Source: a virus. Taken from it: 22,284 nt of DNA. Numbering within the stretch: position 1 is the stretch's first letter; each line of letters begins with the position of its first letter. This document shows, piece after piece, positions 2-18,635 of this stretch. The notes under the pieces are model-generated. The model made no database searches, was not told where the DNA came from, and saw only the letters and a program-made list of their open reading frames with translations. Location of the stretch: positions 1-22,284 of the IMG/VR virus record IMGVR_UViG_3300020463_002616. One strand, 5' to 3'. The position numbers were made by a program, and so were the translations under genes.

Positions 2-82
2 CCTAGTTTTATAGAACACTTTGTGATGCCGGGTAACACAGGCACAACAATAAGTGGAAATATTTATATGGATTTTGCATAA
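2..82 (+). CDS. C-terminal end of a 2OG-Fe(II) oxygenase-like protein (truncated by window edge)
   Basis: An open frame enters from the left edge and stops at the TAA of 80-82, which overlaps the next ATG by one base (TAATG). The 26 visible residues end in a pattern PSFIEH-x-V-x-P followed by TISGNI. This matches the C-terminal strand pair of the oxygenase encoded at 585-1202, which has PSWISHYVLP and then TIAANF. The His would be the distal iron ligand. The Arg that usually binds the 2-oxoglutarate carboxylate a few residues later is not seen here (Thr-Thr instead). The assignment rests on this short similarity and on the neighbouring oxygenases, so it is moderate. Confidence 0.5.
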   Translation, partial: PSFIEHFVMPGNTGTTISGNIYMDFA

Positions 83-585
83 TGAAAAAAACATCAGTAG
101 TAATAGATAACTTTTTACCTAAACCGGATTTAGTAAGAGAGCAAGCAATTAGTTTAGAATATCCTACTACAGGCTCATTTCCCGGAATGAGAAGTCTAGC
201 CTGCGACGATGACTATCAGATGTTTATACATCATAGATTCCAAGAAATATTAGGTGTGAATATAACAGAATTTACTATGGATAGTTTTTGTTTTCAATTA
301 TGTTATGAAGGTGCAGATACTTGGATACACAAAGACGGAGTTGATTGGGCAGGAGTGCTATATCTAAATCCAGATGCTCCTTCAGAAGCTGGTACAGGTC
401 TTTATCTGGAAAAAAACGGAGATTATGATCTGGTCAACGTAATTGGTAATGTGTATAATAGGCTTGTAATTTATGATGGTAACATGGATCACGCAAGTTT
501 AATTGCTGGATTTGGTGATTCTCCAGAAAATGGCAGACTGACACAAGTATTCTTCTTTAACGCACAACCTGAGGCTTGGGAATAA
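82..585 (+). CDS. 2OG-Fe(II) oxygenase-like protein (167 aa)
   Basis: Probable iron- and 2-oxoglutarate-dependent dioxygenase, a family that hydroxylates proteins or small molecules. The core shows the HxD iron motif at H83-K84-D85 inside a WIHKDG segment, a strand pair GVLYLNP, a distal His at H137 (NMDHAS) and an Arg at R152 (GRLTQVFFFN) in the position expected to bind 2-oxoglutarate. This arrangement resembles the small DUF6445-type oxygenases, a recollection I could not check. It is the first complete gene of a co-directional block; ATG overlaps the upstream stop and its own stop overlaps the next start (TAATG). No clear Shine-Dalgarno is visible, consistent with translational coupling. 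Substrate unknown. Confidence 0.72.
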   Translation: MKKTSVVIDNFLPKPDLVREQAISLEYPTTGSFPGMRSLACDDDYQMFIHHRFQEILGVNITEFTMDSFCFQLCYEGADTWIHKDGVDWAGVLYLNPDAPSEAGTGLYLEKNGDYDLVNVIGNVYNRLVIYDGNMDHASLIAGFGDSPENGRLTQVFFFNAQPEAWE

Positions 586-1202
586 TGCGTGTTGATTTGT
601 GGGACACACATTTTTATATAGGAAAAATGGCTGAAGCTGACGACATACTAAAAGAATGGGATCCTTATCTGCAAGATGATAGTTATATTAGTGACAGCAT
701 GTGGACTATGGCTGAAACTAAAAGTAGTATTAGAAACGAAAAAAACAAAGAGTTGCCTTGGAACATATTTTTTGAGTCAGTTCGTCCTCATATGAATACA
801 TTTTTAGAGAGTTTAGATCCACAAGTTGCTTACAATGTATACTGTGACGAAATGTGGTTTAACAAATATGAAAAAGGTGATTATCAAGAACCGCATGATC
901 ATGCTTTTCCAGGACGCGGAGTAAGTGTAATTTATTTTTTAGATTTTCCAGATCAAGAAAAAGATCCCGGAGGCACGCTTGTATTTGAATGTCCGAATTT
1001 TCAAATGATTAGAGCTACTGGTATGGATAGAATATTTAACGATTATAATTATCAACATATTACACCACCTCTAAAAAAAGGCAGTCTAATTATTTTTCCT
1101 AGCTGGATATCTCATTATGTGTTACCTAACAAGACAGATAAGAGAAGAGCAACAATAGCCGCAAATTTTGTGATCACGGCTGCTGATAAAAAAGATGAAT
1201 GA
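585..1202 (+). CDS. 2OG-Fe(II) oxygenase-like protein, HxH variant (205 aa)
   Basis: Putative 2-oxoglutarate/Fe(II) oxygenase of the type annotated as 2OG-FeII_Oxy_5 (TIGR02466). Visible motifs: a jelly-roll core with EPHDHAF (H104, D105, H106), then a VSVIYFLDFP strand, a distal His at H177 (PSWISHYV) and Arg187/188 before TIAANF. In this subfamily the usual HxD is often written H-x-H, as here. I chose the ATG at 585 rather than an in-frame TTG at 576, because 585 makes the common TAATG overlap with the upstream stop. The 3' end overlaps the next gene by 8 bp. Substrate is not deducible; a protein target or a sugar intermediate are both possible. Confidence 0.7.
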   Translation: MRVDLWDTHFYIGKMAEADDILKEWDPYLQDDSYISDSMWTMAETKSSIRNEKNKELPWNIFFESVRPHMNTFLESLDPQVAYNVYCDEMWFNKYEKGDYQEPHDHAFPGRGVSVIYFLDFPDQEKDPGGTLVFECPNFQMIRATGMDRIFNDYNYQHITPPLKKGSLIIFPSWISHYVLPNKTDKRRATIAANFVITAADKKDE

Positions 1203-1743
1203 CACTTTATACATTGGAAATAACAATCAGTGGTTAATAGAAACATACGTGCCTATGTGGCAAGAATATGAACATCTATTTGAAAGCAACCATCCCAACC
1301 TAGTAGAACCAGGAAAAAGTACTACAGTCAATGGCTATCAAATACCACACACATTGCAAGAAACAAAAGATGTAGCTGATTTTATCATAGATAAAACAAA
1401 CAGTATACTCCTAGAAGGAGAAGTTTCATGTAATATACATGATCACATTCAGACCTGGAGTATAAGGTACTATCCAGGAGGTTGGAAAGGCCTACACAAT
1501 CATACAAAAGGACGTACAGGTTGCACAGCAGTTTTATATTTTGATGATATAGAAAAGCAACCAAACGATGAAGGTGCGTTTTACGCTATAATACAAGATG
1601 AAAAAGGTGATACACATGTAAATTGGTGGCAACCAAAAAAAGGATTGTTACTTATTATGGATGCTCGTATATGGCACGGTGTTTATCCTACAGTTGACGA
1701 ACGTAAAGTAATGGTGTTTGATTTTGAGGCAACACATGGGTAG
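1195..1743 (+). CDS. 2OG-Fe(II) oxygenase-like protein, HNH-type metal motif (182 aa)
   Basis: Third consecutive oxygenase-like gene. Near residue 92 the sequence reads YYPGGWKGLHNH, followed by TAVLYFDD, then a late segment ARIWHGVYP with H161 and R170 ahead of KVMVFDF. This is the spacing of a double-stranded beta-helix oxygenase with metal ligands H101/H103 and H161 and 2-oxoglutarate Arg170. H101-x-H103 replaces the classical HxD, as in the preceding gene, so the two may be diverged relatives of one subfamily. The ATG overlaps the previous gene by 8 bp and the end overlaps the next start by 8 bp. Activity is inferred, and a non-catalytic cupin-like role is possible. Confidence 0.62.
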   Translation: MNDTLYIGNNNQWLIETYVPMWQEYEHLFESNHPNLVEPGKSTTVNGYQIPHTLQETKDVADFIIDKTNSILLEGEVSCNIHDHIQTWSIRYYPGGWKGLHNHTKGRTGCTAVLYFDDIEKQPNDEGAFYAIIQDEKGDTHVNWWQPKKGLLLIMDARIWHGVYPTVDERKVMVFDFEATHG

Positions 1744-2542
1744 AACACTTTTTGTAGGTTGTAGTCATACAATGGGCTACAGAGAAGATGCTCCAACAGA
1801 TGAACCCAATGTATGGCGTGACAATAATTACGCAGAAATATACAGCCAAATTTTTGATAAAAAGGTTGTTATTATGGCAAGTGCAGGAGCAGGAAATAGA
1901 GCATATCATAGGTTTATATCCTATGCTTTTGAAAAATATAACGATATAGATGAAGTTTTTGTTCAAAGCACTTATTGGGGTAGATTTCCCATAGCAATTA
2001 ATCCTGACTTAGACGAACAAAATATATTTAACAAAGATTTTTTTATAGATAAAAACGTCTGTGATGATCTTGTTGATAGATATAGTATTGCTCTTTCGCC
2101 AAATAATAAATATTTAGAAACTTATTTAAAACCTTGGTCCAGCGATTATGATAATTTTCCTTACATGAAAGATACAAAGGTTTGGGAATCAGAACCAGAT
2201 ATAAGAAGAACTTCTCATGTTTATATGCAAATGTGGCATTACAGTAATACACATTTAGTGCAAGAAGATTATTTTACATATATGGCAATGTGTAACATGT
2301 TATGCGAAAAAAATAATGCAGAAATGTATCTTTGGAATATAAATGACAGATGCTATATACCTAAAGAAACAAAAAATTATTATGTAAAACTAAACAATAC
2401 AAAAATTGCAGATATAGATGCAGAAAATTATTTAAAAAAATATATGGATATTGAAAAAGTAGACGGAGAACACTATTCAACAAGTGTCCATGGTGCTATT
2501 GCAAAGAGATATATACCATATGTAAAGGAGAAAGCATGGTAG
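1736..2542 (+). CDS. SGNH/GDSL hydrolase-like protein (268 aa)
   Basis: Likely SGNH-superfamily enzyme (esterase, acyltransferase or deacetylase). The N-terminus after a short beta strand is LFVGCSHT, giving nucleophile Ser10. A second block ASAGAGN (residues 48-54) supplies oxyanion-hole Gly and Asn54. Near the C-terminus DGEH (D243, H246) fits the catalytic DxxH block. The middle of the protein is rich in Tyr, Trp and Asp and lacks recognisable motifs. ATG at 1736 is preferred over an in-frame TTG at 1718 because homologous SGNH proteins begin at this strand and the resulting 8 bp overlap matches the neighbouring junctions. Lying between oxygenases and a heptose pathway, it might add or remove acyl groups on a sugar; this is inference. 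Confidence 0.68.
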   Translation: MGRTLFVGCSHTMGYREDAPTDEPNVWRDNNYAEIYSQIFDKKVVIMASAGAGNRAYHRFISYAFEKYNDIDEVFVQSTYWGRFPIAINPDLDEQNIFNKDFFIDKNVCDDLVDRYSIALSPNNKYLETYLKPWSSDYDNFPYMKDTKVWESEPDIRRTSHVYMQMWHYSNTHLVQEDYFTYMAMCNMLCEKNNAEMYLWNINDRCYIPKETKNYYVKLNNTKIADIDAENYLKKYMDIEKVDGEHYSTSVHGAIAKRYIPYVKEKAW

Positions 2543-3129
2543 AAAAAACATATGAAGAGTATAGCGGAATCGAAGAATATCATAATGCTTTTGACAAAGA
2601 CTTTTGTGATGAAGTAATTAGACACTTTGAGACACTAGATGACAATCGAGTAATAAATCCTAATAGGCAAGGACATGGATTTGTAACTGATGATCGAATT
2701 GTGTTTGATTGGGCATATACACAAGGTGTATATCATTACGATTTTAAGATTTGCGATTATTTTTATGAAAGATTAAAAGAAATTTACAAAAGCGAATACA
2801 TGCAAAAGTATAGTATACTTCAACATAGTAAACAACACAGTGCTAAAGGTATGAATGTGCAACGTACAAGTCCACATCAAGGATATCATGCCTGGCATGC
2901 AGAAGCCGCATGTAAAAGTAGTGCCTGTAGAGTTGTAAATTATATGGTATATTTGAATGATGTAGAAGAAGGTGGCGAGACAGAATTCCTTTATCAAGGG
3001 AAACGACTTGCTCCTGAACAAGGTAAACTAGTTATTTTTCCTACATCATTTACACATCCGCACAGAGGTAACCCTATTTACAAAGGACAAAAGTACATCA
3101 TCACCGGATGGTACACTTATGACGAATAA
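2536..3129 (+). CDS. Prolyl 4-hydroxylase-type 2OG-Fe(II) oxygenase (197 aa)
   Basis: Resembles the P4H family of 2-oxoglutarate/Fe(II) dioxygenases. The core has WHAE (H121, E123), then VVNYMVYLNDVEEGGETEF, then KLVIFPTSFTH (distal H174) and GQKYIITGW with Lys186 in the position that binds 2-oxoglutarate in P4H enzymes. Glu123 in place of the usual Asp of HxD is a noticeable substitution, although WHxE also occurs in related phage proteins as far as I recall. A good Shine-Dalgarno (AAAGGAG at 2524-2530) precedes the ATG, which overlaps the SGNH gene stop by 7 bp. The 3' end overlaps the GmhB-like gene by 11 bp. The substrate is unknown; phage structural protein is one option. Confidence 0.78.
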   Translation: MVEKTYEEYSGIEEYHNAFDKDFCDEVIRHFETLDDNRVINPNRQGHGFVTDDRIVFDWAYTQGVYHYDFKICDYFYERLKEIYKSEYMQKYSILQHSKQHSAKGMNVQRTSPHQGYHAWHAEAACKSSACRVVNYMVYLNDVEEGGETEFLYQGKRLAPEQGKLVIFPTSFTHPHRGNPIYKGQKYIITGWYTYDE

Positions 3130-4453: not shown

Positions 4454-5707
4454 ATGATAAAAGTATATGGCGACATAATGCTAGACAGGTGGATTGTTGG
4501 TAAAGCAAAGAGAATAAGTCCAGAAGCTCCTGTACCTGTGTTAAAAGAAATAGAACAACAATTTTGTCCTGGCGGAGCAGGCAATCTTGCAGTAAATATT
4601 GCCAATCTTAATGGAGAAATTGGAATATATGGAAGTATCGCATCTGACAAAGAAGGATATCGTGTAATAGAGTGTTTTTCAAACTTTAAAAAGATTAATT
4701 TTAGAGCAAGTGTGGACAGTAAATTAACTACAACCAAGAATAGACTAGTAGGTCAAGGCGGTCAGCACATTTGTAGGTGGGATAGAGAGGAAAAATACAC
4801 CGGTAAAGATGCATTTCATAGATTATTAGAAGAAGTACAAGCGGAAGATATTGTCTGTGTAAGTGATTATGCTAAAGGCACAGTGAGAGAAGGTACAATT
4901 CAAAAATTATTGAAGAGAAACTGCAAAATTTTGGTAGATCCCAAGCAAGATGCTGAATTATACCGCGGTGCATACCTAGTCAAGCCAAATTTCCGTGAAT
5001 TTAAGAACTGGTTTGGAAAATTTAGCAAAGAAAAAGCACAAAAAGCAGTAAAAGACTATAATTGGACCTGGTTAGTGGTTACAGCAGGTGCAAATGGTAT
5101 GCATGTGTTTAATAATAAAGGTGAATACAAGCATTTTCAAGAACCTGCTCAAGAAGTTGCCGATGTTACTGGTGCAGGTGACACTGTGTTGGCTGTTCTA
5201 GCCTATCTTATCGACGAAGGGTATGATGTATTTGATGCATGTGAAAAAGCATGTTATGCCGCCGCTAGAGCAGTAGAACACAGAGGTGTTCATGTAGTAT
5301 CTAAAGAAGATATCCAACGTGAAGTCGTGTTTACAAACGGAGTGTTTGATGTACTACATGCAGGACACTTGAAATTGCTCAAATATGCAAAAGGAAAAGG
5401 AAATAAATTAATTGTTGGTATAAACAGTGACGCAAGTGTACAAAGAATAAAGGGTAATGACCGTCCTATTAATGATATCGGCTCAAGAATAGCACAACTT
5501 GAAGAGTTGCCTTGGGTCGATGAAGTAAAAATATTCTCAGAGGATACTCCATACAAACTTATTCAAGAAATTAAGCCAAATTTAATTGTGAAAGGCGGAG
5601 ATTATCAACCAAAAGATGTAGTAGGTGCTGATATTGCTGAAGTAGATATATTTCCACGTGTAGATAACTTCAGTACAACAAAAATTGTGGAGAAAATTAA
5701 TGAGTAG
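4454..5707 (+). CDS. hldE: Bifunctional heptose 7-phosphate kinase / heptose 1-phosphate adenylyltransferase
   Basis: Full-length two-domain HldE. The N-terminal ribokinase/PfkB domain (about 1-285) has VYGDIMLDRW, SPEAPVPV, the substrate-loop PGGAGN, and the anion-hole/catalytic DVTGAGD (D243 base). It phosphorylates D-glycero-D-manno-heptose 7-phosphate at C1. The C-terminal nucleotidyltransferase domain (about 288-417) has FTNGVFDVLHAGH (HxGH at 301-304), RPIND and VKGGDY (378-383), and transfers AMP to heptose 1-phosphate. The protein is 417 aa against about 477 in E. coli; the missing part is an N-terminal extension and loops, not a motif. ATG 4454 gives the expected start just before the first strand. 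The stop overlaps the cupin start by 8 bp. An upstream sigma70-like box is listed separately. Confidence 0.95.
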   Translation: MIKVYGDIMLDRWIVGKAKRISPEAPVPVLKEIEQQFCPGGAGNLAVNIANLNGEIGIYGSIASDKEGYRVIECFSNFKKINFRASVDSKLTTTKNRLVGQGGQHICRWDREEKYTGKDAFHRLLEEVQAEDIVCVSDYAKGTVREGTIQKLLKRNCKILVDPKQDAELYRGAYLVKPNFREFKNWFGKFSKEKAQKAVKDYNWTWLVVTAGANGMHVFNNKGEYKHFQEPAQEVADVTGAGDTVLAVLAYLIDEGYDVFDACEKACYAAARAVEHRGVHVVSKEDIQREVVFTNGVFDVLHAGHLKLLKYAKGKGNKLIVGINSDASVQRIKGNDRPINDIGSRIAQLEELPWVDEVKIFSEDTPYKLIQEIKPNLIVKGGDYQPKDVVGADIAEVDIFPRVDNFSTTKIVEKINE

Positions 5708-6062
5708 ACACACAGGCAAGGTAGAAAAAGGATGGGGTAGTGAAACTATATTTGCTACAAACGATTTATACTGCGGAAAATTACTAAATTTTAACAAAGG
5801 AGCAAAATTTAGTATGCACATGCATAAAGATAAAGACGAAACTTGGTATGTCTTATCAGGAAAATTTGTTGTGAAAACAATAGATACAACAAATGCTGAT
5901 ATTTTAGCCGATCCACTTGAAGAAGGCGATACCTGGCATAATCCTCCTATGCTTCCACATCAAATTTTATGTCTCGAGGCTGGCTGTATTATTGAAGTAA
6001 GCACTCCTGATAGTATAGAAGACAATTATAGGGTAGATAAAGGAGATAGTCAACAATTATGA
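5700..6062 (+). CDS. Metal-binding cupin, phosphomannose-isomerase-like (120 aa)
   Basis: Single-domain cupin resembling the isomerase-type cupins of the ManC/phosphomannose isomerase group. It opens with KGWGSE, has YCGKLLNF, then cupin motif 1 with metal ligands H40, H42 and E47 (SMHMHKDKDETWYVLSGKF) and motif 2 with PPMLPHQ (H87), a complete four-ligand site. The ATG at 5700 overlaps the hldE stop by 8 bp, and the gene overlaps hldD by 4 bp (ATGA), so it is embedded in the heptose operon. This placement suggests it acts on a pathway sugar. Because GmhA, the ketose-aldose isomerase, is absent from the visible pathway, this protein is a candidate replacement. That role is inference; a 3,4-ketoisomerase or epimerase role is also possible. 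Confidence 0.82.
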   Translation: MSRHTGKVEKGWGSETIFATNDLYCGKLLNFNKGAKFSMHMHKDKDETWYVLSGKFVVKTIDTTNADILADPLEEGDTWHNPPMLPHQILCLEAGCIIEVSTPDSIEDNYRVDKGDSQQL

Positions 6063-6871
6063 AGATATTAGTAACCGGACATGAAGGATTTATAGGACAG
6101 AATTTTGTAAACTCTGTAATAGATAAACATGAAATAGCAGGTTGGGAATGGAACACCAATAAATTACCAGATGTTAAAGGGTTTGATTGGGTGGTTCATT
6201 TCGGCGCAGTAAGTAGCACAGAAGAAACAGATGTAGATAAAGTTATTTTACAAAATTACGAATTCTCAAAATGGTTATACAACGAATGTAATCATACTGG
6301 TGCAAATTTACAATATGCAAGCAGTGCTAGTGTATATGGAAAGACTGACCATTTCACTGAAAACGGAAAATTACAACCAGAAAGTCCCTATGCCTGGTCA
6401 AAGTACCTATTCGACCGTTGGGTACACCAACAAAGGCATAACATTCATGTACAAGGGTTTAGATATTTTAATGTGTATGGTCCAGGTGAAGCACATAAAG
6501 GTAATCAAAAAAGTGTTTTTCATAAATTTAAAGACCAAGCAGAAGAAAATGGAGAAATTTTAGTATTTGAAGGTAGCAAAGAAATTAAAAGAGATTTTAT
6601 ATGTGTTGCTGATGTAGTAGAAATCCATAAAAGATTTTTTGATATTAAACAATCTGGTGTTTGGAACATTGGAACAGGTTCTGCAACTAGTTTTTATGAT
6701 ATTGCAGAGAAAATTGCTGAAAAGCATGATGCTAAAATTACCGAAATTCCTATACCAGAGAATATACAAAAACAGTACCAATACTTTACACAAAGTAACA
6801 ATACAAATTTACAAGTTGCTATGGGAGATTATAGATTTATATCACCCCTTGACTATCTTGATATGGCATAA
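6059..6871 (+). CDS. hldD: ADP-L-glycero-D-manno-heptose 6-epimerase
   Basis: Extended short-chain dehydrogenase/reductase of the HldD (RfaD) family, which converts ADP-D,D-heptose into ADP-L,D-heptose using bound NADP. Seen: the N-terminal dinucleotide motif VTGHEGFIGQN, GAVSSTEET (HldD-specific), SSASVYG with the catalytic Ser/Thr region, YAWSKYLFD with the YxxxK pair, then FRYFNVYGPGEAHKGN, FEGSKEIKRDF, WNIGTG and QYFTQSNNTNL. These are the blocks of E. coli HldD in the same order. At 270 aa it is shorter than the roughly 310 aa of E. coli, mainly from loop shortening. ATG 6059 overlaps the cupin stop; an AGGAG lies about 14 bases upstream. The C-terminus lies at a late-promoter-like motif for the next gene. 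Confidence 0.93.
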   Translation: MKILVTGHEGFIGQNFVNSVIDKHEIAGWEWNTNKLPDVKGFDWVVHFGAVSSTEETDVDKVILQNYEFSKWLYNECNHTGANLQYASSASVYGKTDHFTENGKLQPESPYAWSKYLFDRWVHQQRHNIHVQGFRYFNVYGPGEAHKGNQKSVFHKFKDQAEENGEILVFEGSKEIKRDFICVADVVEIHKRFFDIKQSGVWNIGTGSATSFYDIAEKIAEKHDAKITEIPIPENIQKQYQYFTQSNNTNLQVAMGDYRFISPLDYLDMA

Positions 6872-6895: not shown

Positions 6896-9094
6896 ATGGC
6901 ACAAAATGATCCAGTTGTAAACCGCATACGAATTATTCCACGCAAAGACGATTTCTTAGATAGAAATGTTGGCTCAAGTGGAGAAATTTATTATAGTAAA
7001 GACACTAATGCCTTACGGCTTTACAGTGGTAACAACAAAGGCGGATTTGAAGTTGTTACAGAACAAAATGTACGTAGAAATATTGCAAATCAAGAAGTTG
7101 CAACAATTACATATGCAGTAACAATTCTTAATGATAATGATGTAGCAAATAGATACGTTCTTAACGGTGATTATCATCCAGCACCTAATTTTACAGTTGG
7201 ATACACATATGTTTTTGATCAGTCTGATCAAACCAATGTTTATTATCCTAATGCCGTAGGCACAGTAATAAATGCCCATCCTTTACTTTTTAGTACTACT
7301 GCTAACGGAATACATGCTACACCTACAGCAGGCGTACCTTACGAAACAGGTGTAATTTATCTTCTTGAAGACTTGCCAGTTACTAGACAAAGATACGTTC
7401 AAAAATTTACTTCAAGTATAAGTAGAAAAGTACAAATTACAATTACAGCAACAACACCAACAACCTTATATTATTACTGTCAATACCATGCTAACATGGG
7501 AAATACAATTAGTATTTCATATCCTGGCACAGGCTCTTACAATGACTTAACAAATAAACCAACTATACCTGCTGATGTGAGCGATCTTACTGATACTACT
7601 TCGTTGCTATTTGACGGTACATACGCTAGTCTTACAGGACAGCCGACCATTCCTTCTACAATATTAGATTTAGGCATAACTGATGGTAATGCAGATCAAG
7701 TTTTAAAAACAGACGGTGCTGGTAACTTTAGTTTTGTTGATCAAACAGGTGGTGCAGGTAGCGGTGACACATTTAAAACTATTATAAGTGATGATGGACA
7801 AGTAATTGCATCAGGAGAGTCTACACTTAATGTTCTAGGCGGCACTAACATAGCAACGGCTATTGCAACAGACACATCAAATGTAACAATTAATTTAAGT
7901 GCATTTAGTGTAGATTTTTTAAGTGATGTAGACACAACTACAGTAACACCTTCAACAGGACAGGTTTTAAAATGGGACGGATCAAAATGGGCACCAGGTA
8001 CAGATGCAACAACAGGCGGCGCCGGAACTGATGCTGATACTTTAGATGGTTTCGACGGCTCATACTACTTAGATTATAGTAATTTTTCTAATACACCCAC
8101 TGTTGCAACATTATCTAGTTTCAGTGTAGGTAATGAGTTGGTTGCAAGCGGTAATGGTGCAATAGGTTATGATAATACTACAGGTGTGTTTAGATACACT
8201 CCACCTACTGCCGCCGGCATAGGTGCAATTACAGCAGAAACAAATGACCTTACATCTGCGGTTGTTTGGGCAAGTGTGCCTAACGACTATATTACACAAA
8301 GTAGTGTTGTACAACACCAAACTGCTTTAAGTATTACAAGTGATCAAATTATTGATAGAGATGATTCTATTATATTTGTGGGCGACGATAGTACAGGAAG
8401 CAGTGTGCCTGTAGGCAGTACAATTCAATTCACAGGTTCAGGCGGAGCAAGTGTCCAAGTTTCTAATGGTGTAGTCACAATAGCCGCAAGTGGAGGTGGT
8501 GCAGCTTCTAATAGTTTTGCAACTATTTCCGCTGACGGAAATAATGTCGTCGCAGCAAGTGCAACTGATACATTGACACTTACTCCTGGCTCAAACGTAA
8601 CCTTTAGTGTAGATACAGGTGCAAAACAGATTACTATCAACAGTAGTGCAACTGGTGGCGCAACAGATTTTGATGATTTACAAGATGTTACTACAGCAGC
8701 CTTAAAGATTGACTTAATAGCAGAACCAGCAATAGCAAGACTAGACGTGTCTGCAAGCCAAACTAACGGTTATAGATTTGACAGTCATTATAGCACACTT
8801 AATCCAACAATTTATGCTATATCTGGTACCACTATTGCATTTAACTTAAATAGTGGCACAATGGGCAGTCATCCTTTCCAAATACAAGATAACACAGGTA
8901 CACAGTATGATACAGGATTAGTTCATTATACACCTAGTGGTACAAAATCTACAGGATCTAATGCACAAGATAAAACATCTGGTACATTGTACTGGCATGT
9001 GCCTTTTGGAATAAGCGGAAACTGGAGATATCAGTGTACATCACATGCTCCTATGGTAGGAACAATTACTGTTAAAGCGTTTAACGCATTATAA
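6896..9094 (+). CDS. Large virion protein with two cupredoxin-like domains (732 aa)
   Basis: Long Thr/Ser/Gly-rich protein, probably a tail-fibre or baseplate-associated structural component. The N-terminus GEIYYSKDTNALRLYSG is a strand-turn module common in virion proteins. Residues about 100-212 form a domain with H128, C195, H198 and M201; the last three lie in CQYHANM. Residues about 635-729 form a second with H659, C714, H717 and M720 (CTSHAPM). This His...Cys-x2-His-x2-Met pattern is that of type-1 copper cupredoxins of amicyanin type. Between them are a KWDGSKW module (359-365) and repetitive linkers with poly-Gly. ATG follows AGGAAGA with five bases spacing. The last 14 bp overlap a convergent gene. 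No signal peptide. That the domains bind copper is not proven. Confidence 0.8.
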   Translation: MAQNDPVVNRIRIIPRKDDFLDRNVGSSGEIYYSKDTNALRLYSGNNKGGFEVVTEQNVRRNIANQEVATITYAVTILNDNDVANRYVLNGDYHPAPNFTVGYTYVFDQSDQTNVYYPNAVGTVINAHPLLFSTTANGIHATPTAGVPYETGVIYLLEDLPVTRQRYVQKFTSSISRKVQITITATTPTTLYYYCQYHANMGNTISISYPGTGSYNDLTNKPTIPADVSDLTDTTSLLFDGTYASLTGQPTIPSTILDLGITDGNADQVLKTDGAGNFSFVDQTGGAGSGDTFKTIISDDGQVIASGESTLNVLGGTNIATAIATDTSNVTINLSAFSVDFLSDVDTTTVTPSTGQVLKWDGSKWAPGTDATTGGAGTDADTLDGFDGSYYLDYSNFSNTPTVATLSSFSVGNELVASGNGAIGYDNTTGVFRYTPPTAAGIGAITAETNDLTSAVVWASVPNDYITQSSVVQHQTALSITSDQIIDRDDSIIFVGDDSTGSSVPVGSTIQFTGSGGASVQVSNGVVTIAASGGGAASNSFATISADGNNVVAASATDTLTLTPGSNVTFSVDTGAKQITINSSATGGATDFDDLQDVTTAALKIDLIAEPAIARLDVSASQTNGYRFDSHYSTLNPTIYAISGTTIAFNLNSGTMGSHPFQIQDNTGTQYDTGLVHYTPSGTKSTGSNAQDKTSGTLYWHVPFGISGNWRYQCTSHAPMVGTITVKAFNAL

Positions 9095-10162: not shown

Positions 10163-11602
10163 TTAGCCTTCTAGTGCAAGCCTCCATGTACCTCTTGGAT
10201 ACAAGCCGTCAACACTTTTAAGCCAATCATTTCCGTCCCAACGATATTGTACATTTGTTGTAAGATTTGTTATGTAGGTTATTGTTGCTGTTTCAGACGC
10301 ATCAAACACTATTTGCCATTTTGATCCAGTCCATTCAATTATATCATTTGCAGACGCAATTAAATCTTCACCATTTGTTGCTTTCCAAGCATCTGGACCA
10401 TCTGTATTATTTGCATTTCCTATGTCAGCAAGTAAAAGCATTCTTACACCAGTGGCTTTAATTTCAGATGGGTTAAACGTAGTAGGATCTATAATAAAAT
10501 CTATAGAGGTAAAACTATTTGTATCTCTTGCTGGGCCATTTATTACAGAATTACTCGGAAAACTATCAGTATCCCAATTTACAATTAATTGTCTTGGATT
10601 AAGTTCGTTAATAGCAATACTACCAGTTATAGTTGAATCAGTATCTAATTTTGTAAAATGTATGCGACTTATATCTGCTTGATATTGACCTGGTAGAGCT
10701 TCTAAAAGTTGATCCCATAAAGCATTTCCAACTGTTCCTCTATGCACAAGCTGAACAACGTTACCATCTACATACGCACCGTAATTTTTATGTGTAGTTG
10801 TGACTACAGTGTCTTCAACATCTGTGTTTATATCTCTATCAGTATCATTGCCTTCACTTACTGTACCTACTTTGATAGCATCATCAAATCTATTAAGATC
10901 AGGACCGCTTAACCCTAATTCTATATCACCTTTTGATTCATCAAAAATACTTGTAATTATGTTTGCAATTACTCCTAGTCTTTTTACTTTTACTGGTGGT
11001 GAAATGTATATAGGAGTAGTAAATGTCATGTCTGCTATATCTATTTCACTATCCACGCCTACTGGAATAGAACGTGAACTAAATGTCACTGAATCTAAAT
11101 TTACTACACTCAAACTTGTCCAATCAATGTAGTTATCCGTTGTTTGTATTTCTAAACTTGGATTAAAAAGAGTAAGAATTTGTTCAAGAATTTGTAGTTT
11201 TTGTTCTGTATTTGTACTCCAAATATCTACTTTCATTGTAAGATTATAAGGTGTAGGCATTAAACGTTCGACTGTGTAATTTTTACCTTGAAAATTTAAA
11301 TATTCTCCACCATCTTTATCATAAGCACGTTCACGTATATTCAGTTTATTAACATAGCTACTATCACTTGTTCGTGTTCTATCCATTTCAAGTCCTGTGA
11401 CATACACAGCCATACGTGGTGCACTTGGTATTTTGTTTTCTGAATTGTCCCGTATAATACTTGATACTTGACGTGTTAGATCACCATACATAACAGGTAC
11501 TTGCACTAGTTTACCTTTGCCATCTTTATAACTAAAATTACTCATCAGGCGTATCATCTGTGTGATATATCGTCTTATTTGTCCGTCATAAAAGTGTTGC
11601 AT
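10163..11602 (-). CDS. gp15: Tail sheath stabiliser / proximal tail protein gp15 homologue (479 aa)
   Basis: Homologue of T4 gp15, which caps the contractile sheath and tube and links the tail to the neck. The N-terminal part shows the T4 landmarks in order: FYDGQIRRYITQM (4-16; T4 has FYNSSFRRYATLM), VQVPVMYGD (33-41), MPTPYNLTMKVDIW (115-128) and QILEQILTLFNPS (137-149). T4 gp15 is about 272 aa; here an additional roughly 200-residue C-terminal part follows, with aromatic modules EWTGSKW and YRWDGNDW between 423 and 460. Start ATG overlaps the gp14 stop by one base (TAATG), as expected for gp14-gp15 coupling. The gene is on the strand opposite gp13. Confidence 0.85.
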   Translation of the reverse strand: MQHFYDGQIRRYITQMIRLMSNFSYKDGKGKLVQVPVMYGDLTRQVSSIIRDNSENKIPSAPRMAVYVTGLEMDRTRTSDSSYVNKLNIRERAYDKDGGEYLNFQGKNYTVERLMPTPYNLTMKVDIWSTNTEQKLQILEQILTLFNPSLEIQTTDNYIDWTSLSVVNLDSVTFSSRSIPVGVDSEIDIADMTFTTPIYISPPVKVKRLGVIANIITSIFDESKGDIELGLSGPDLNRFDDAIKVGTVSEGNDTDRDINTDVEDTVVTTTHKNYGAYVDGNVVQLVHRGTVGNALWDQLLEALPGQYQADISRIHFTKLDTDSTITGSIAINELNPRQLIVNWDTDSFPSNSVINGPARDTNSFTSIDFIIDPTTFNPSEIKATGVRMLLLADIGNANNTDGPDAWKATNGEDLIASANDIIEWTGSKWQIVFDASETATITYITNLTTNVQYRWDGNDWLKSVDGLYPRGTWRLALEG

Positions 11603-12762
11603 TAGTTGTCTGCCTTAGGTCTAAGTGCTTTAGATAACGACTGACGTTCTTTAGTTTCTTCGCCACCAATTTTACTACTTCTAGCATTATTGATAAAGCC
11701 TGTTTTCTGCGTGTTTCTTTCGTCTGTATTTGTAAGTGTTACTCTTACATCATCTTGTACTTTCACCCATCTATTCCCATCATATTTAAATAACCTTTTT
11801 GGCATAAAATCTGTCCTAAGAAAATAATCACCTTCTTGGTTAGTTGCCGGAAAACTAATCCCCATACCATAAGGTGCACCATTTGGCGATTCACTTGTGC
11901 CTAATAAGTATCCGTTATATCCAGATCTATCTGGATTATCTGTTTGTTGATCTACAGATGTAGCACCACTTGCTTCTATTTCTCCAGAATCAGCTGTTTT
12001 TAATGCAACACTGCCGTCATCGTTAGTTGCTAATGTATAGTAATGACTTATGTCATAACCACTTTTAGCAGCATCTGCTTCTGCTTGATTAATCACTGCA
12101 TCGTTTATTTGCATTTCTTTTTCATAAGTTGAAAGTAAATCTCTCAAAGTATCGTTACCTGGATTATCTGCATCTGCAGGTAAATCAAGTATTTCTTTAA
12201 ATTCTTGTCCATCGTATATTTGTTTTAGTTTTAGTCGATATAGATGAGGATACCAAGTCATTGAAAAACCTTCAGCGGCTCTGTTTATATCTTCGATTAC
12301 ATAAAATCTTTTCAATGCCATTTGTAAATCGTTGAGAGCATATTCATCTTTCAAGTGCGGAAGTTCTATGACATCGCCGGGCATAAGTTTTCTTCCTAGC
12401 GTTTTTACACTACTGTTTATATGTACAGTCATAAAAAGAGTATCATTTGTTAAAAACAAACCAAATTGACTAAGATCAAAATCAATGTCTTGGACATTGT
12501 AGATAGCTCTCATGTTGTAAATGTCAGGATCATATTTCCTATCACGGTTTTCCATAAACAGCATATCTTGTATGTTAGTTTCTTTGACTGCATCGTATTG
12601 TGGCTTATCAGCTGTTGCTTCTGCATCTGTAGGATTTACAGGACCTAAATACTTGTGAACATTTATGTCTGTACCACCAACAGTAAACATTTCAAGGACT
12701 TGTTTGTCTATGAATTCATAATCTTTTGTTTTTTCTGGTCTGTATAAAGATATTCTTGGCAT
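11602..12762 (-). CDS. gp14: Neck protein gp14 homologue (386 aa)
   Basis: Neck protein that closes the head-tail connector; T4 gp14 is about 256 aa. The N-terminal region, MPRISLYRPEKTKDY and later VGGTDINVHKY, NIQDMLFMENRDRKYD and LGRKLMPGDVIELPHLKD, matches my recollection of gp14 in marine T4-like phages; adjacency to gp15 and gp13 supports it. The C-terminal 150 residues are an extension with a GDYFLRTD ... KYDGNRWVKV module (about 305-335) and a charged tail. I choose ATG 12762 (MPRIS) over 12768 (MYMPRIS). A late-promoter motif ends five to six bases before 12762 and there is no Shine-Dalgarno, so the message may be leaderless. First gene of the minus-strand operon. Confidence 0.82.
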   Translation of the reverse strand: MPRISLYRPEKTKDYEFIDKQVLEMFTVGGTDINVHKYLGPVNPTDAEATADKPQYDAVKETNIQDMLFMENRDRKYDPDIYNMRAIYNVQDIDFDLSQFGLFLTNDTLFMTVHINSSVKTLGRKLMPGDVIELPHLKDEYALNDLQMALKRFYVIEDINRAAEGFSMTWYPHLYRLKLKQIYDGQEFKEILDLPADADNPGNDTLRDLLSTYEKEMQINDAVINQAEADAAKSGYDISHYYTLATNDDGSVALKTADSGEIEASGATSVDQQTDNPDRSGYNGYLLGTSESPNGAPYGMGISFPATNQEGDYFLRTDFMPKRLFKYDGNRWVKVQDDVRVTLTNTDERNTQKTGFINNARSSKIGGEETKERQSLSKALRPKADN

Positions 12763-12767
12763 GTACA

Positions 12768-12776
12768 TATTTATCG
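12768..12776 (-). promoter_or_regulatory. Late promoter motif CGATAAATA for gp14
   Basis: Read on the minus strand, CGATAAATA ends five bases before the gp14 ATG (12762). It is a T4-late-like -10 box with no -35. Transcription would start at or beside the ATG. It is the mirror image of the gp13 promoter three bases away. Confidence 0.6.
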
Positions 12777-12779
12777 TAA

Positions 12780-12788
12780 CGATAAATA
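12780..12788 (+). promoter_or_regulatory. Late promoter motif CGATAAATA for gp13
   Basis: CGATAAATA followed by CTATT, ahead of a GGAG Shine-Dalgarno (12794-12797) and the gp13 ATG (12806). The same motif precedes gp18, and similar ones precede gp19 and others. Confidence 0.65.
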
Positions 12789-12805
12789 CTATTGGAGAAA
12801 GATTT

Positions 12806-13564
12806 ATGGCTAGTTTGCAAACACAAAAACAAGAAGTTTTCGATTATGTATATGCACTATTAGGTGGTGGTATGATCGATGTTGAATTAGATCCAGTGCA
12901 TTACGAAACTGCGTTGGGCAAAGCACTATCTAGATTTAGGCAACGTTCTGATAATTCAGTAGAAGAAAGTTATGTGTTTCTTGAACTTGTAATAGATCAA
13001 AATGATTATATATTACCCAGTGAAGTTGTAGAAGTAAGACAAGTATATAGAAGAAGTATTGGTTCTAGAACTGGTGGCGGCGATGGAGGATCATTGTTCG
13101 AACCATTTAATCTTGCTTATACAAATGCTTACTTACTAAGCACACAAAACATGGGCGGATTAGCAACATATGATATGTTCTCTCAACGCCAAGAATTAGT
13201 TGGAAGAATGTTTGGTAGTTTTATTGAATTTAAATGGAATCCTACAACCCATAAATTAACACTACTACAACGTCCTAGAGCAGATGAAACAATTCTAATG
13301 GAATGTTATAATTACAGACCTGATTCGCAATTATTAGAAGATTATCTAGCCAAACAGTGGATTAAAGATTATACGTTAGCAGTTTGTAAATACATGCTAG
13401 GTGAAGCACGTAGTAAATTTGCAACTATTGCTGGACCACAAGGAGGCGGTCAGCTTAATGGTGATACACTGAAAGGTGAAGCCCAAGCTGAAATGGAAAA
13501 ATTAGAATCAGAAGTAGCAACACAAATACCTGGCGGCATGGGATATAGCTTTACTATAGGCTAA
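12806..13564 (+). CDS. gp13: Neck protein gp13 homologue (252 aa)
   Basis: Head-completion neck protein. T4 gp13 (about 309 aa) forms the ring below the portal to which gp14 binds. Recognised by the pattern VFDYVYALLGGGMIDVEL, a helix TALGKALSRFRQRSDN, YVFLELV, YILPSEVVEVRQVYRR, the FIEFKWNP/LTLLQRP strands, and a C-terminal helix QWIKDYTLAVCKYMLGEARSKF before a Gly-rich stretch, as I recall it in marine T4-like phages. I chose ATG 12806, with GGAG eight bases upstream, over an in-frame ATG at 12761 that lies upstream of the promoter. Its partners gp14 and gp15 are divergently transcribed, unlike in T4. The end is followed by a sigma70 promoter for the next gene. Confidence 0.82.
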   Translation: MASLQTQKQEVFDYVYALLGGGMIDVELDPVHYETALGKALSRFRQRSDNSVEESYVFLELVIDQNDYILPSEVVEVRQVYRRSIGSRTGGGDGGSLFEPFNLAYTNAYLLSTQNMGGLATYDMFSQRQELVGRMFGSFIEFKWNPTTHKLTLLQRPRADETILMECYNYRPDSQLLEDYLAKQWIKDYTLAVCKYMLGEARSKFATIAGPQGGGQLNGDTLKGEAQAEMEKLESEVATQIPGGMGYSFTIG

Positions 13565-14628: not shown

Positions 14629-17600
14629 ATGGCATTAACATCACCAGGTGTTCAGGTATCCGTAATAGACGAAAGTTTTTACACCCCTTCGGAGCCAGGC
14701 ACCACACCAATGATTTTCGTTGCCTCTGCGAGTAACAAAGCAAATGCAGGCGGCACAGGCACAGCACAGGGTACACTAAAAAGTACAGCTGGCAAACCAT
14801 ACTTGCTAACATCACAACGTGACTTAGCAGATACATTTGGAGATCCAGTTTTCCAAATTGATTCTAATAACAATCCAATACATGGTTCAGAATTAAATGA
14901 ATATGGATTACAGGCTGCATATTCGTTGCTAGGTGTAAGCAATAGAGCATATGTTGTGAGGGCAGATGTTGATCTCAATGAACTGAAAGCAAGTGCAACA
15001 GCACCAGCGGCAGATCCAAAAGATGGCACATACTGGTTTGACACAGATGATTCATTGTACGGTATACAGCAGTGGAACGGCGAAGCTATTACAACTACAG
15101 GTGGACAGCAGTTTACTAACAAGGTACCTTACGTAATAACAGATGCAACTGAAACTGAAGATGGTTCATTAGTTGTAAACGGATTCGAAGGTAAAAAGCC
15201 AAAAAGCACAGTTGGTGCAATAGGCGATTATGCTGTAGTAGCAACTTCAACTCTAAACAGAATTTACTACAGAAACAAAAACGGCGTTTGGGTATTAGTT
15301 GGTAGTGATGCTTGGACAAAGAGTTGGGCTACTGTAAAAGGTACAAAATCAAACCCGACTTTTGCAAGTTCACGTAACATAACAATTAACGGAACAACAG
15401 TAGCAATTGGTTCAAGTGATACAGTAACAAATGTTGTTTCAACAATTAACGGTTTGCTTATACAGGGTGTAACGGCAGCAGTAGTTGATACAAGACTAGA
15501 AATTTATAGTGATGGCACAGGAAGTGCAAGTCAAGATAGTACACTAGCTGGTGATATTTTAATCGGAGGTGATGCCGATGGATTGACAGAGCTAGGTATA
15601 ACAGCTGGCACATACTTTCCTCCTGCACTTGCAATAGATCCGCACACAAGCGTTCCAGAATGGAAAACAGCTGATACATATACACGCCCAAGCGGAAGTG
15701 TATGGATTAAAACTACAGAGCCAAATGCTGGTGCAAAATTAAATGTTAAAGAATGGAGTGATTCAGCAAAGACTTGGAATAAAATTGTTTCGCCTATGTA
15801 TGCATCAAATGCAACAGCGTTATACAATTTAGATAGAACAGGTGGTGGAGCAAATATTGCAATAGGTGCATTATATGCAAAAACTAATGTAGCCGCTGAT
15901 TCAAGCCCATTAGGTACATTTAAATTATACAGAAGAGAAAGTGTAGGATCTACAACTATTACATCTGCAAAAATTACAGGAAGTACATTCTCAGCAGGTG
16001 CACTTAGCTTTAAAATGTCCTCAACTAAAAAAGGACAATTAACTTTTGAAAGCGAAGCTACAGTTGGATTTACTGCAACAGGCGCTACAACAGATGCTGG
16101 TTTGTTAGCTGAAGCAATTACAAACCAAGGAATGAATGGTGTAAGTGCAGAAGTAAATGCACAAAACAAAGTTATAATTAAGCACTCAGAAGGTGGTGAA
16201 ATTAAATTTACTGACACTGATGGCGCACTTACATCCGCAGGGTTTGCACCGTTCGTAAGTGCAACAAGTGGTACTGCTAATCTTTACTATCAAGATGGTA
16301 CAGATAACACAACAAGTCCGCTACAACTACAAGCATCGAGCTGGAAAGTCCTAGTGTACACAGCAAGTAATTCGGCTGTGACGCAACTTGCAACACAAGG
16401 ACAATTATGGTACAGTTCTGTAGTTGACGAAATTGACATTATGATCCATGACGGAAGTAAATGGGTAGGATATCTATCAAGTACTTCTCCATTTTATCAA
16501 GCGGCAGCTGATGATCAAACTGATCCAGCAGGACCTATTGTAAGTGCAACAAGACCAGAAAAACAGTCAGACGGGTCATTATTGAAAAATGGCGATATTT
16601 GGATTGATACTTCCGACTTAGAAAATTATCCAGGGATATACAAATTCAACGCAAACTTAACAAACACACCATTAGCAAACAGATGGGAACTTGTTGACAA
16701 GTCAGATCAAACTACAGAATCAGGTATATTATTTGCTGATGCACGTTATAACACAAGCGGTGCTAATTCAAATGAAGCAGGTGATATAGATACACTTTTA
16801 GAAAGTGACTTTGTAGATTTTGATTGCCCAGACCCGGCACTATATCCAAAAGGTATGCTACTTTGGAATCTGCGTAGAAGCGGATTTAATGTAAAACGTT
16901 TTGAGCGTAACTACATTAACACAGCAAGTAATAATATACGTTTTGGTTCAGGTGATGGCGAGTCTATGGAAAACTATTATGTACATCGTTGGGTTACTGA
17001 ATCAGGAAATCAAAATGATGGATCTGGTAGCTTTGGTAGAAAAGCACAGCGTAAAGTTATAGTACAAGCACTACAAGCAACAATGAACAGTAATGATGAA
17101 ATTAGAGATGATGAGTCAAGACTATTCAACGTAATGGCTACACCAGGTTATCCAGAACTAATTGGAGAAATGATTAGTCTAAACTTTGATAGAGGACTTA
17201 CAGCTTTTATCCTAGGTGATTCACCAATGAGACTTACACCTGATGCTACTTCATTAAATGAATGGGCAACTAATGTTAATTCTGTGGTAGAAGATAATGA
17301 TGATGGACTAATTAGTAGAGACGAATACTTGGGTGTATTTTATCCATCAGGATTTACAAGTGACAATGCAGGTAACAATGTTGTAGTTCCAGCGTCGCAC
17401 ATGATGCTACGTACATTGGCACTAAGTGATCAAGTATCGTTTCCATGGTTTGCACCTGCAGGAACTAGACGAGGCGGTATAACAAATGCTTCTTCAACAG
17501 GTTTCTTAAATGCAGAAGGCGAATTTATAGCTACTGCACTAAACGAAGGACAAAGAGACACATTGTATTCAAACGCAGTCAATCCAATTACGTTTATTAC

Positions 17601-17976
17601 AGGTGCAGGACTTGTTAACTTTGGACAGAAAACTCGTGCAAGAGGTGCAAGTTCACTAGACAGAATTAACGTAGCACGTTTGGTTATCTACTTACGTAGT
17701 CAACTTAATAAACTTGCAAAGCCTTATATCTTTGAGCCTAATGATAAAATCACACGTGACGAAATCAAACAAGCTGCAGAAAGTTTAATGCTTGAACTTG
17801 TAAGTCAAAGAGCACTTTACGATTATCTTGTTGTGTGTGACGAATCAAACAACACACCGTCAAGAATAGACAGAAATGAACTATACTTAGATATTGCTAT
17901 CGAACCAGTAAAAGCAGTGGAGTTTATTTATATTCCGCTACGCTTGAAAAATACTGGAGAAATAGCAGGACTATAA
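14629..17976 (+). CDS. gp18: Tail sheath protein gp18 homologue, very large (1115 aa)
   Basis: Contractile sheath subunit. The N-terminus SPGVQVSVIDESFY and the C-terminal third, GLVNFGQKTRARGASSLDRINVARLV followed by LNKLAKPYIFEPND and the final VKAVEFIYIPLRL, are diagnostic of gp18. T4 gp18 is 659 aa; this one is about 450 residues longer. The extra mass lies between roughly 120 and 700 and contains modules with GTYWFDT ... WNGE (about 134-155), VWIKT ... WNKIV (about 358-388), IHDGSKW (near 611) and GDIWIDTSD ... RWELVD (655-694). It also contains two alpha/beta segments resembling the flagellin IN motif (251-295, 467-530). They should lie on the outer sheath surface. Start chosen by SD AGGAG. 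Confidence 0.95.
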   Translation: MALTSPGVQVSVIDESFYTPSEPGTTPMIFVASASNKANAGGTGTAQGTLKSTAGKPYLLTSQRDLADTFGDPVFQIDSNNNPIHGSELNEYGLQAAYSLLGVSNRAYVVRADVDLNELKASATAPAADPKDGTYWFDTDDSLYGIQQWNGEAITTTGGQQFTNKVPYVITDATETEDGSLVVNGFEGKKPKSTVGAIGDYAVVATSTLNRIYYRNKNGVWVLVGSDAWTKSWATVKGTKSNPTFASSRNITINGTTVAIGSSDTVTNVVSTINGLLIQGVTAAVVDTRLEIYSDGTGSASQDSTLAGDILIGGDADGLTELGITAGTYFPPALAIDPHTSVPEWKTADTYTRPSGSVWIKTTEPNAGAKLNVKEWSDSAKTWNKIVSPMYASNATALYNLDRTGGGANIAIGALYAKTNVAADSSPLGTFKLYRRESVGSTTITSAKITGSTFSAGALSFKMSSTKKGQLTFESEATVGFTATGATTDAGLLAEAITNQGMNGVSAEVNAQNKVIIKHSEGGEIKFTDTDGALTSAGFAPFVSATSGTANLYYQDGTDNTTSPLQLQASSWKVLVYTASNSAVTQLATQGQLWYSSVVDEIDIMIHDGSKWVGYLSSTSPFYQAAADDQTDPAGPIVSATRPEKQSDGSLLKNGDIWIDTSDLENYPGIYKFNANLTNTPLANRWELVDKSDQTTESGILFADARYNTSGANSNEAGDIDTLLESDFVDFDCPDPALYPKGMLLWNLRRSGFNVKRFERNYINTASNNIRFGSGDGESMENYYVHRWVTESGNQNDGSGSFGRKAQRKVIVQALQATMNSNDEIRDDESRLFNVMATPGYPELIGEMISLNFDRGLTAFILGDSPMRLTPDATSLNEWATNVNSVVEDNDDGLISRDEYLGVFYPSGFTSDNAGNNVVVPASHMMLRTLALSDQVSFPWFAPAGTRRGGITNASSTGFLNAEGEFIATALNEGQRDTLYSNAVNPITFITGAGLVNFGQKTRARGASSLDRINVARLVIYLRSQLNKLAKPYIFEPNDKITRDEIKQAAESLMLELVSQRALYDYLVVCDESNNTPSRIDRNELYLDIAIEPVKAVEFIYIPLRLKNTGEIAGL

Positions 17977-18008: not shown

Positions 18009-18635
18009 ATGGCAATTTCAACTTTATCAAAAATCACAGTACCGTTAGCTAGTGGTGATTCCGCAAGCAATCAGGGACTGCTTATGCCAAAGCTCCAGTA
18101 TCGCTTTAGAGTGAGCCTGGAAAACTTTGGTGTTTCTACACCGACAACAGAGCTTACAAAGCAAGTAATTGATATTACTAGACCTAACGTAAGTTTTGAA
18201 CAAATGACTATAGACATATACAATTCAAGAGTATACCTAGCGGGTAAACATACTTGGGAACCACTTTCATTGAACTTACGTGAAGATGTAAACAATAATG
18301 TGCAAAAACTTGTAGGCGAACAGCTACAGAAGCAATTTGATTTCTTCGAACAGTCAAGTGCAGCATCTGGATTAGATTATAAATTTACAACACGTATTGA
18401 AATTTTAGATGGTGGTAACGGTATTCATACTCCAAATATACTAGAAACATTTGAAGTATATGGTTGTTACTTAGAAAGTGCAAACTACAATACACTCAAC
18501 TACGCTACAAACGAACCAGTAACAGTTGCATTGAGCATTAGATACGATAATGCAATACAAACACCAGCTGATACAGGTATTGGTACAGCAGTAGGAAGAA
18601 CACTTAACACAGCCGTAACAGGTGGCGGCGCCTAA
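18009..18635 (+). CDS. gp19: Tail tube protein gp19 homologue (208 aa)
   Basis: Inner tail-tube subunit that polymerises inside the sheath. Seen: MPKLQYRFRVSLENFG, EQMTIDIYNSRVYLAGKHTWEPLSL, a mid helix QKLVGEQLQKQFDFFEQ, and the strand pair ILETFEVYGCYLESANYN followed by PVTVALSIRYDNA. This is the tube-fold pattern of gp19; T4 gp19 is 163 aa, and here there are short extensions at both ends. The N-terminal Ser/Gly-rich arm and the C-terminal GGGA tail are probably flexible. It follows gp18 as in T4, and a strong terminator closes the unit 26 bases after the stop. Confidence 0.92.
   Translation: MAISTLSKITVPLASGDSASNQGLLMPKLQYRFRVSLENFGVSTPTTELTKQVIDITRPNVSFEQMTIDIYNSRVYLAGKHTWEPLSLNLREDVNNNVQKLVGEQLQKQFDFFEQSSAASGLDYKFTTRIEILDGGNGIHTPNILETFEVYGCYLESANYNTLNYATNEPVTVALSIRYDNAIQTPADTGIGTAVGRTLNTAVTGGGA

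Follow-up and report, generated by a model that had tools for sequence, protein, structure and literature searches.

Gene content of the window and layout of the tail protein

The window analyzed here is an entire IMG/VR record (IMGVR_UViG_3300020463_002616; 22,284 bases), which covers only a fragment of the virus. It carries a gene for a tail/baseplate fibre-like protein that appears to contain two cupredoxin domains, together with several genes for tail components (Table 1). The window begins with a series of small genes typical of marine myoviruses (82-3129), 2OG-Fe(II) oxygenase-like and related, in which 1195-1743 and 2536-3129 match PHROG 2OG-Fe(II) oxygenase families; the match of 82-585 is to a family of minor coat proteins. 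Immediately upstream of the two-cupredoxin gene lie an HldE-like fusion of a sugar kinase and a cytidylyltransferase (4454-5707; ADP-heptose pathway), an adjoining gene of cupin type (5685-6062) and one resembling NAD-dependent sugar epimerases (6059-6871), which together may form a glycan modification set. The tail sheath protein is unusually long (1115 aa) and is closest to those of the jumbo phages Atu_ph07 and Phosso and of the PA5oct group, rather than to those of cyanophages, its nearest relatives being found in jumbo myoviruses that infect Agrobacterium, Sinorhizobium and Pseudomonas.

Table 1. Features of the window and of the two-cupredoxin tail protein. Ligand counts are raw fractions of aligned relatives, which are inflated because most metagenomic relatives were retrieved by patterns overlapping part of the motif.
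Feature	Position	Strand	Basis
Tail/baseplate fibre-like virion protein, two cupredoxin domains, 732 aa	6896..9094	+	PHROG 677, 708, 9729 (tail)
N-terminal 60 aa, possible anchoring segment	6896..7075	+	Without PHROG match
Domain 1, predicted cupredoxin fold, aa 61-215	7076..7540	+	AF2, Foldseek
H128, putative Cu ligand 1, domain 1 (HP motif)	7277..7279	+	47/48 in alignment
C195, putative Cu ligand, domain 1	7478..7480	+	48/48
H198, putative Cu ligand, domain 1	7487..7489	+	48/48
M201, putative axial Cu ligand, domain 1	7496..7498	+	46/48, Gln in the remaining 2
Repetitive fibre-like linker/shaft, aa 216-609	7541..8722	+	Partial tail-fibre matches, PHROG 677, 9729, 32829
Domain 2, predicted cupredoxin fold, aa 610-732, extreme C-terminus	8723..9091	+	AF2, Foldseek, PDB profile search
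H659, putative Cu ligand 1, domain 2 (SHPFQI)	8870..8872	+	68/68; aligns with first ligand His of amicyanin and plastocyanin
C714, putative Cu ligand, domain 2	9035..9037	+	68/68; aligns with amicyanin C92
H717, putative Cu ligand, domain 2	9044..9046	+	68/68; aligns with amicyanin H95
M720, putative axial Cu ligand, domain 2	9053..9055	+	68/68; aligns with amicyanin M98
Tail sheath stabiliser-like protein	10163-11602	-	PHROG 11196/227
Virion structural protein	11602-12768	-	PHROG 11591
Head-tail adaptor/neck protein	12761..13564	+	PHROG 211
Tail sheath	14629-17976	+	Pfam and PHROG
Tail-tube-like protein	18009-18635	+	Pfam and PHROG
Tail-tube-like protein	18728-19939	+	Pfam and PHROG

The preliminary description of this DNA took the product to be a virion protein, an assignment supported by homology and gene context, as the protein matches PHROG tail families and its gene lies in a structural neighbourhood with sheath, tube and stabiliser genes. 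Its further designation as a phage fibre holds in part: the PHROG matches and the gene context point to a fibre-like protein associated with the tail or baseplate, while identity as a fibre is only partly established. Among the tail families, phrog_708 matches around domain 1, phrog_9729 in the shaft, which is built of repeats of the types YNDLTNKPTIP and GQVLKWDGSKWAPG, and phrog_677, the baseplate wedge tail fibre connector, in the C-terminal part. The latter match spans only profile positions 180-411 of 412, and the protein was thus not assigned to gp9 proper, of which it shares the C-terminal part rather than the full length. Cyanophage gp9 (phrog_677) shares domain 2 and gp10-like proteins (phrog_708) share domain 1, whereas in the window protein the two types are combined in a single chain and the N-terminal part of phrog_677 is missing. 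The two domains are homologous to each other (hhalign probability 98.5%, E 3.5e-15).

Predicted fold and relationship to known cupredoxins

The preliminary description proposed that both domains are cupredoxins and named structure prediction as a check, an unrelated fold counting against it; the predictions agree with the proposal, since both domains are modelled with confidence as Greek-key β-sandwiches of the cupredoxin kind, and copper proteins make up nearly all of the solved structures closest to them. The AF2 model of domain 2, built from an alignment of 68 relatives, has a pLDDT of 97.0 and a pTM of 0.90, and that of domain 1 (48 relatives) a pLDDT of 90.9 and a pTM of 0.86. In Foldseek searches of the PDB, domain 2 matches rusticyanin, laccases, nitrite reductase, plastocyanin, auracyanin and amicyanin, and domain 1 has rusticyanin and multicopper oxidases as its top hits and also matches AcoP; judged by protein names, 49 (domain 2) and 48 (domain 1) of the 50 PDB matches listed are cupredoxin-fold proteins. 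The individual matches are modest, with a best E value of 7e-5 and TM-scores of about 0.4-0.6, so that in these models the fold is the same as that of solved cupredoxins, at a distance and with no close relative.

Sequence comparison leads to the same family for domain 2. Its profile of 68 relatives gives 57 PDB matches at E ≤1, 56 of which are cupredoxins (best E 0.002), and in these alignments its first His pairs with the ligand His of plastocyanin and amicyanin and the phage C-T-x-H-x-x-M pairs with C92-T-P-H95-P-F-M98 of amicyanin. The Pfam family Copper-bind (PF00127) is matched by 29 of the 68 domain 2 relatives at E up to 0.05 (best 1.4e-5). The window protein itself scores 11.2 bits against this family, below the gathering cut-off of 21.2, and has a weak match to the NCBIfam plastocyanin model. 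As a single sequence the whole protein retrieves nothing useful from the PDB, cupredoxins being reached by profiles only, and the domain 1 profile finds no significant match among PDB sequences, which is why a fold search was needed for this domain.

The fold and the ligand order are those of amicyanin and plastocyanin (PF00127), with which the phage domains also have an HxM-G-x-I/V end strand in common (YQCTSHAPMVGTITV versus YHCTPHPFMRGKVVV), and the C-x2-H-x2-M loop is the same as that of amicyanin. In contrast to these proteins, the phage domains sit inside a multi-domain fibre protein without a signal peptide and have an HP motif after the first His. They are not filed as amicyanin proper; the methylamine dehydrogenase partner was looked for in the 22 kb window, where no gene for it is present. 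Among solved folds, both domains come closest to rusticyanin and to the type-1 domains found in laccase, multicopper oxidase and nitrite reductase. HPFHLHG is the type-1 His motif of laccase, and the phage H-P-F motif resembles it. Unlike laccase, multicopper oxidase and nitrite reductase, the phage domains have neither trinuclear centre ligands nor an enzyme partner domain, and contain one copper-type site each.

Putative ligand residues and their conservation

The two ligand sets named in the preliminary description, H128/C195/H198/M201 and H659/C714/H717/M720, are all present at these positions and are conserved in independent alignments; the amicyanin-type spacing claimed for them is likewise exact in the C-x2-H-x2-M loop of both domains. 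Each domain presents the type-1 order: a His after the middle strand and then, close to the C-terminal strand, Cys-(x)-His-(x)-Met. In the AF2 models the Cys lies at the end of a strand (E100-106 in domain 2, E130-135 in domain 1) and the His and Met in the loop that follows. C195 and C714, both putative ligands, are the sole cysteines of the protein. With one Cys per domain a CuA-type site is ruled out, and so is a chance motif, by the conservation and by 20,000 shuffles of the protein, among which a single C..H..M arose in one and two arose in none.

As the patterns of several scans overlapped the motif, the HMMs were rebuilt so as to omit the Cys-His-Met segment and to mask the first His. 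Among 190 non-redundant domains from all loci, 178 have the complete set (HCHM), two have HCHQ, one has NCHM and six have lost the site, the other three being truncated or unalignable and hence unscorable; the exact C-x2-H-x2-M spacing is found in 179 of the 190. Domains that fall outside all scan patterns keep C..H..M in 29 of 40 cases. In isolate phages, searched with whole domains by tblastn, HCHM is present in 17 of 23 domains and the site is lost in six. Five of these six losses concern the second gp10 domain in Kyanoviridae, from which all four ligands are absent although the neighbouring domain of the same protein has the full set, and the sixth is the PSS2 protein, in which only the Met position is kept. 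The losses are confined to two lineages and therefore reflect few independent events. The gp10-type loci with an intact first and a ligand-free second domain are L020:8280-12437, L186, L190, L191 and L192. The two viral domains with Gln in place of the axial Met (L005:4273-4722 and L151:6554-7000) read CHFHLNQ and CHHHTNQ. Gln is the axial ligand in stellacyanin and a natural replacement at the type-1 axial position.

These patterns bear on whether the fold serves solely as a structural or adhesive scaffold, the ligands being kept for packing or through recent descent and the virion being devoid of copper. The fold does outlive loss of the site, as the PSS2 protein and the second domain of gp10 show, and ephrins are cellular cupredoxin-fold adhesion domains that have lost copper. 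However, no alignment columns vary less than the four ligands, even when relatives with as little as about 30% identity are included, these residues are nearly always kept or lost together although distant in sequence, and the rare single changes include the Met-to-Gln replacement. A scaffold devoid of copper is for these reasons considered unlikely, if the most substantial of the alternatives. Near all-or-none retention, together with the lack of all four ligands in the second gp10 domain beside an intact first one, suggests instead selection for metal binding beyond the fold alone.

Distribution in phages and cells

Domain 2 occurs in 225 sequenced phage records, nearly all of them from Synechococcus and Prochlorococcus phages, and domain 1 in 71. 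Almost all of these records are marine cyanophages, and the proteins are annotated, for example, as 'baseplate wedge tail fiber connector', copper never being mentioned. Within marine phages the domain is carried by the C-terminus of Kyanoviridae "gp9", by gp10-type baseplate proteins and by the tail fibres of T7-like pelagiphages, and a search with a related query also located it in Methylophilales and Pelagibacter phages. The gp9 of S-SSM5 has an N-terminus like those of T4 gp9 and gp10 and a cupredoxin C-terminus, and on this sequence evidence the cyanophage domain takes the place of the different C-terminal domain of T4 gp9. Likeness was also seen in predicted viral structures, namely those of the P-SSM2 and S-SCSM1 tail-fibre proteins and of β-sandwich proteins of giant viruses.

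When cellular genomes were searched narrowly with domain 2, no match was obtained, and a profile scan with relatives of domain 1 gave 41 loci. Not all of these are cellular, as at least one looks like phage DNA: in a SAR11 genome record (L199:2711-4471), a tail fibre of T7 type (PF03906) ends in the cupredoxin domain. The related tail fibre of the isolate pelagiphage HTVC028P contains a stretch that is 66% identical. The domain is furthermore carried by surface-type proteins of Photobacterium and, in an archaeal record of Marine Group II, by a protein with collagen repeats. Other arrangements include a YHYH domain (PF14240) directly after the cupredoxin domain in a baseplate protein of S-SSM4 (L021:7047-10508) and three tandem copies in the proteins L217:3542-4687 and L141:325-1959.

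The preliminary description regarded a copper-binding or redox-active phage fibre as unusual. Full-text searches of open-access literature turned up no paper on cupredoxin domains in phage virions (baseplate, tail, tail fibre, cyanophage), and while the fold and the site are already known, their place in virions appears to be undescribed. The protein is no isolated oddity: the domain recurs in marine phage baseplate and fibre proteins and in some cell-surface-type proteins. The best supported conclusion, drawn from sequence and predicted structure, is that marine phages repeatedly use a cupredoxin module with a complete putative type-1 copper-type site in their tail, baseplate and fibre proteins, where it usually stands at or near the tip; the reading frame ends within 15 aa of the domain in 121 of 224 domain-bearing ORFs.

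Possible role of the copper-type modules

In the explanation we favour, to which we give a probability of roughly two in three, the window protein is a tail/baseplate fibre-like protein with two cupredoxin modules of the type-1 copper kind that serve as a metal-stabilised connector or in adhesion. One module would lie near the N-terminus and the other would form the C-terminal tip, with the repetitive shaft between them. Each would bind a single copper ion, acquired either in the host envelope or, after lysis, from seawater. With its compact β-sandwich locked by the metal, the module would act in adhesion or as a connector at the junction of the tail with the fibre or with the host surface. 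Copper binding by both domains is likely, given their homology and the co-conservation of the ligands. We infer that the metal is probably copper, and the same probable standing applies to its source, to its part in stabilising the domain and to contact of the module with the fibre or a receptor. The reducing cytoplasm in which phage proteins fold contains little copper, so the sites in the virion could also be apo or zinc-bound.

A metal site has been proposed before in a marine phage fibre, that of an Alteromonas phage, for which an iron version of the Trojan horse strategy (the Ferrojan Horse hypothesis) has been argued; that fibre has six conserved HxH iron motifs, whereas the window protein has a type-1 copper-type cupredoxin site (PMC11705849). 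By analogy, a copper-uptake or redox-active surface receptor of the host might recognize a copper-loaded tip, a proposal that gains from this iron counterpart (PMC11705849) and from the C-terminal tip position of the domain in gp9-type and pelagiphage-type fibre proteins. Nevertheless, domain 1 of the window protein is internal and the gp10 copies are not tips, there is no known receptor, and the hosts (cyanobacteria, SAR11, OM43) presumably have no obvious copper receptor in common, which makes such a copper Trojan horse improbable.

The complete type-1 site with its amicyanin loop raises the question of redox activity, since a site of this loop type is normally an electron-transfer site. In a redox-active fibre the copper centre would swap electrons with the host surface, or change state on contact and so help to trigger the tail. 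Yet the Pfam- and PHROG-annotated genes of the 22 kb window include no partner protein or second redox centre, and electron exchange between two sites a long fibre shaft apart is unlikely. This role is accordingly regarded as very improbable; redox activity as such may be possible, but the favoured explanation does not need it, and the simplest role is probably that of a metal-stabilised connector or adhesin.

Implications for marine phages

Because hundreds of sequenced marine phages carry the domain, many ocean virus particles probably hold copper. A far-reaching extension, which we consider quite improbable, concerns the phages that dominate the sea (cyanophages, pelagiphages and OM43 phages): their virions would be copper metalloproteins with tens of type-1 centres on baseplate and fibres that engage a copper-dependent or redox-active host receptor, in a copper analogue of the iron Trojan horse, and the phages would constitute a biological copper ligand in seawater. 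Cultured isolates that carry the domain (P-SSM2, S-TIM5, S-RIM2 and HTVC028P) make these ideas directly testable. If metal is indeed bound at the sites, some of the ocean's most abundant viruses would have tails that are copper proteins, with a bearing on host recognition, on virion stability in seawater and on the binding of copper in the sea.
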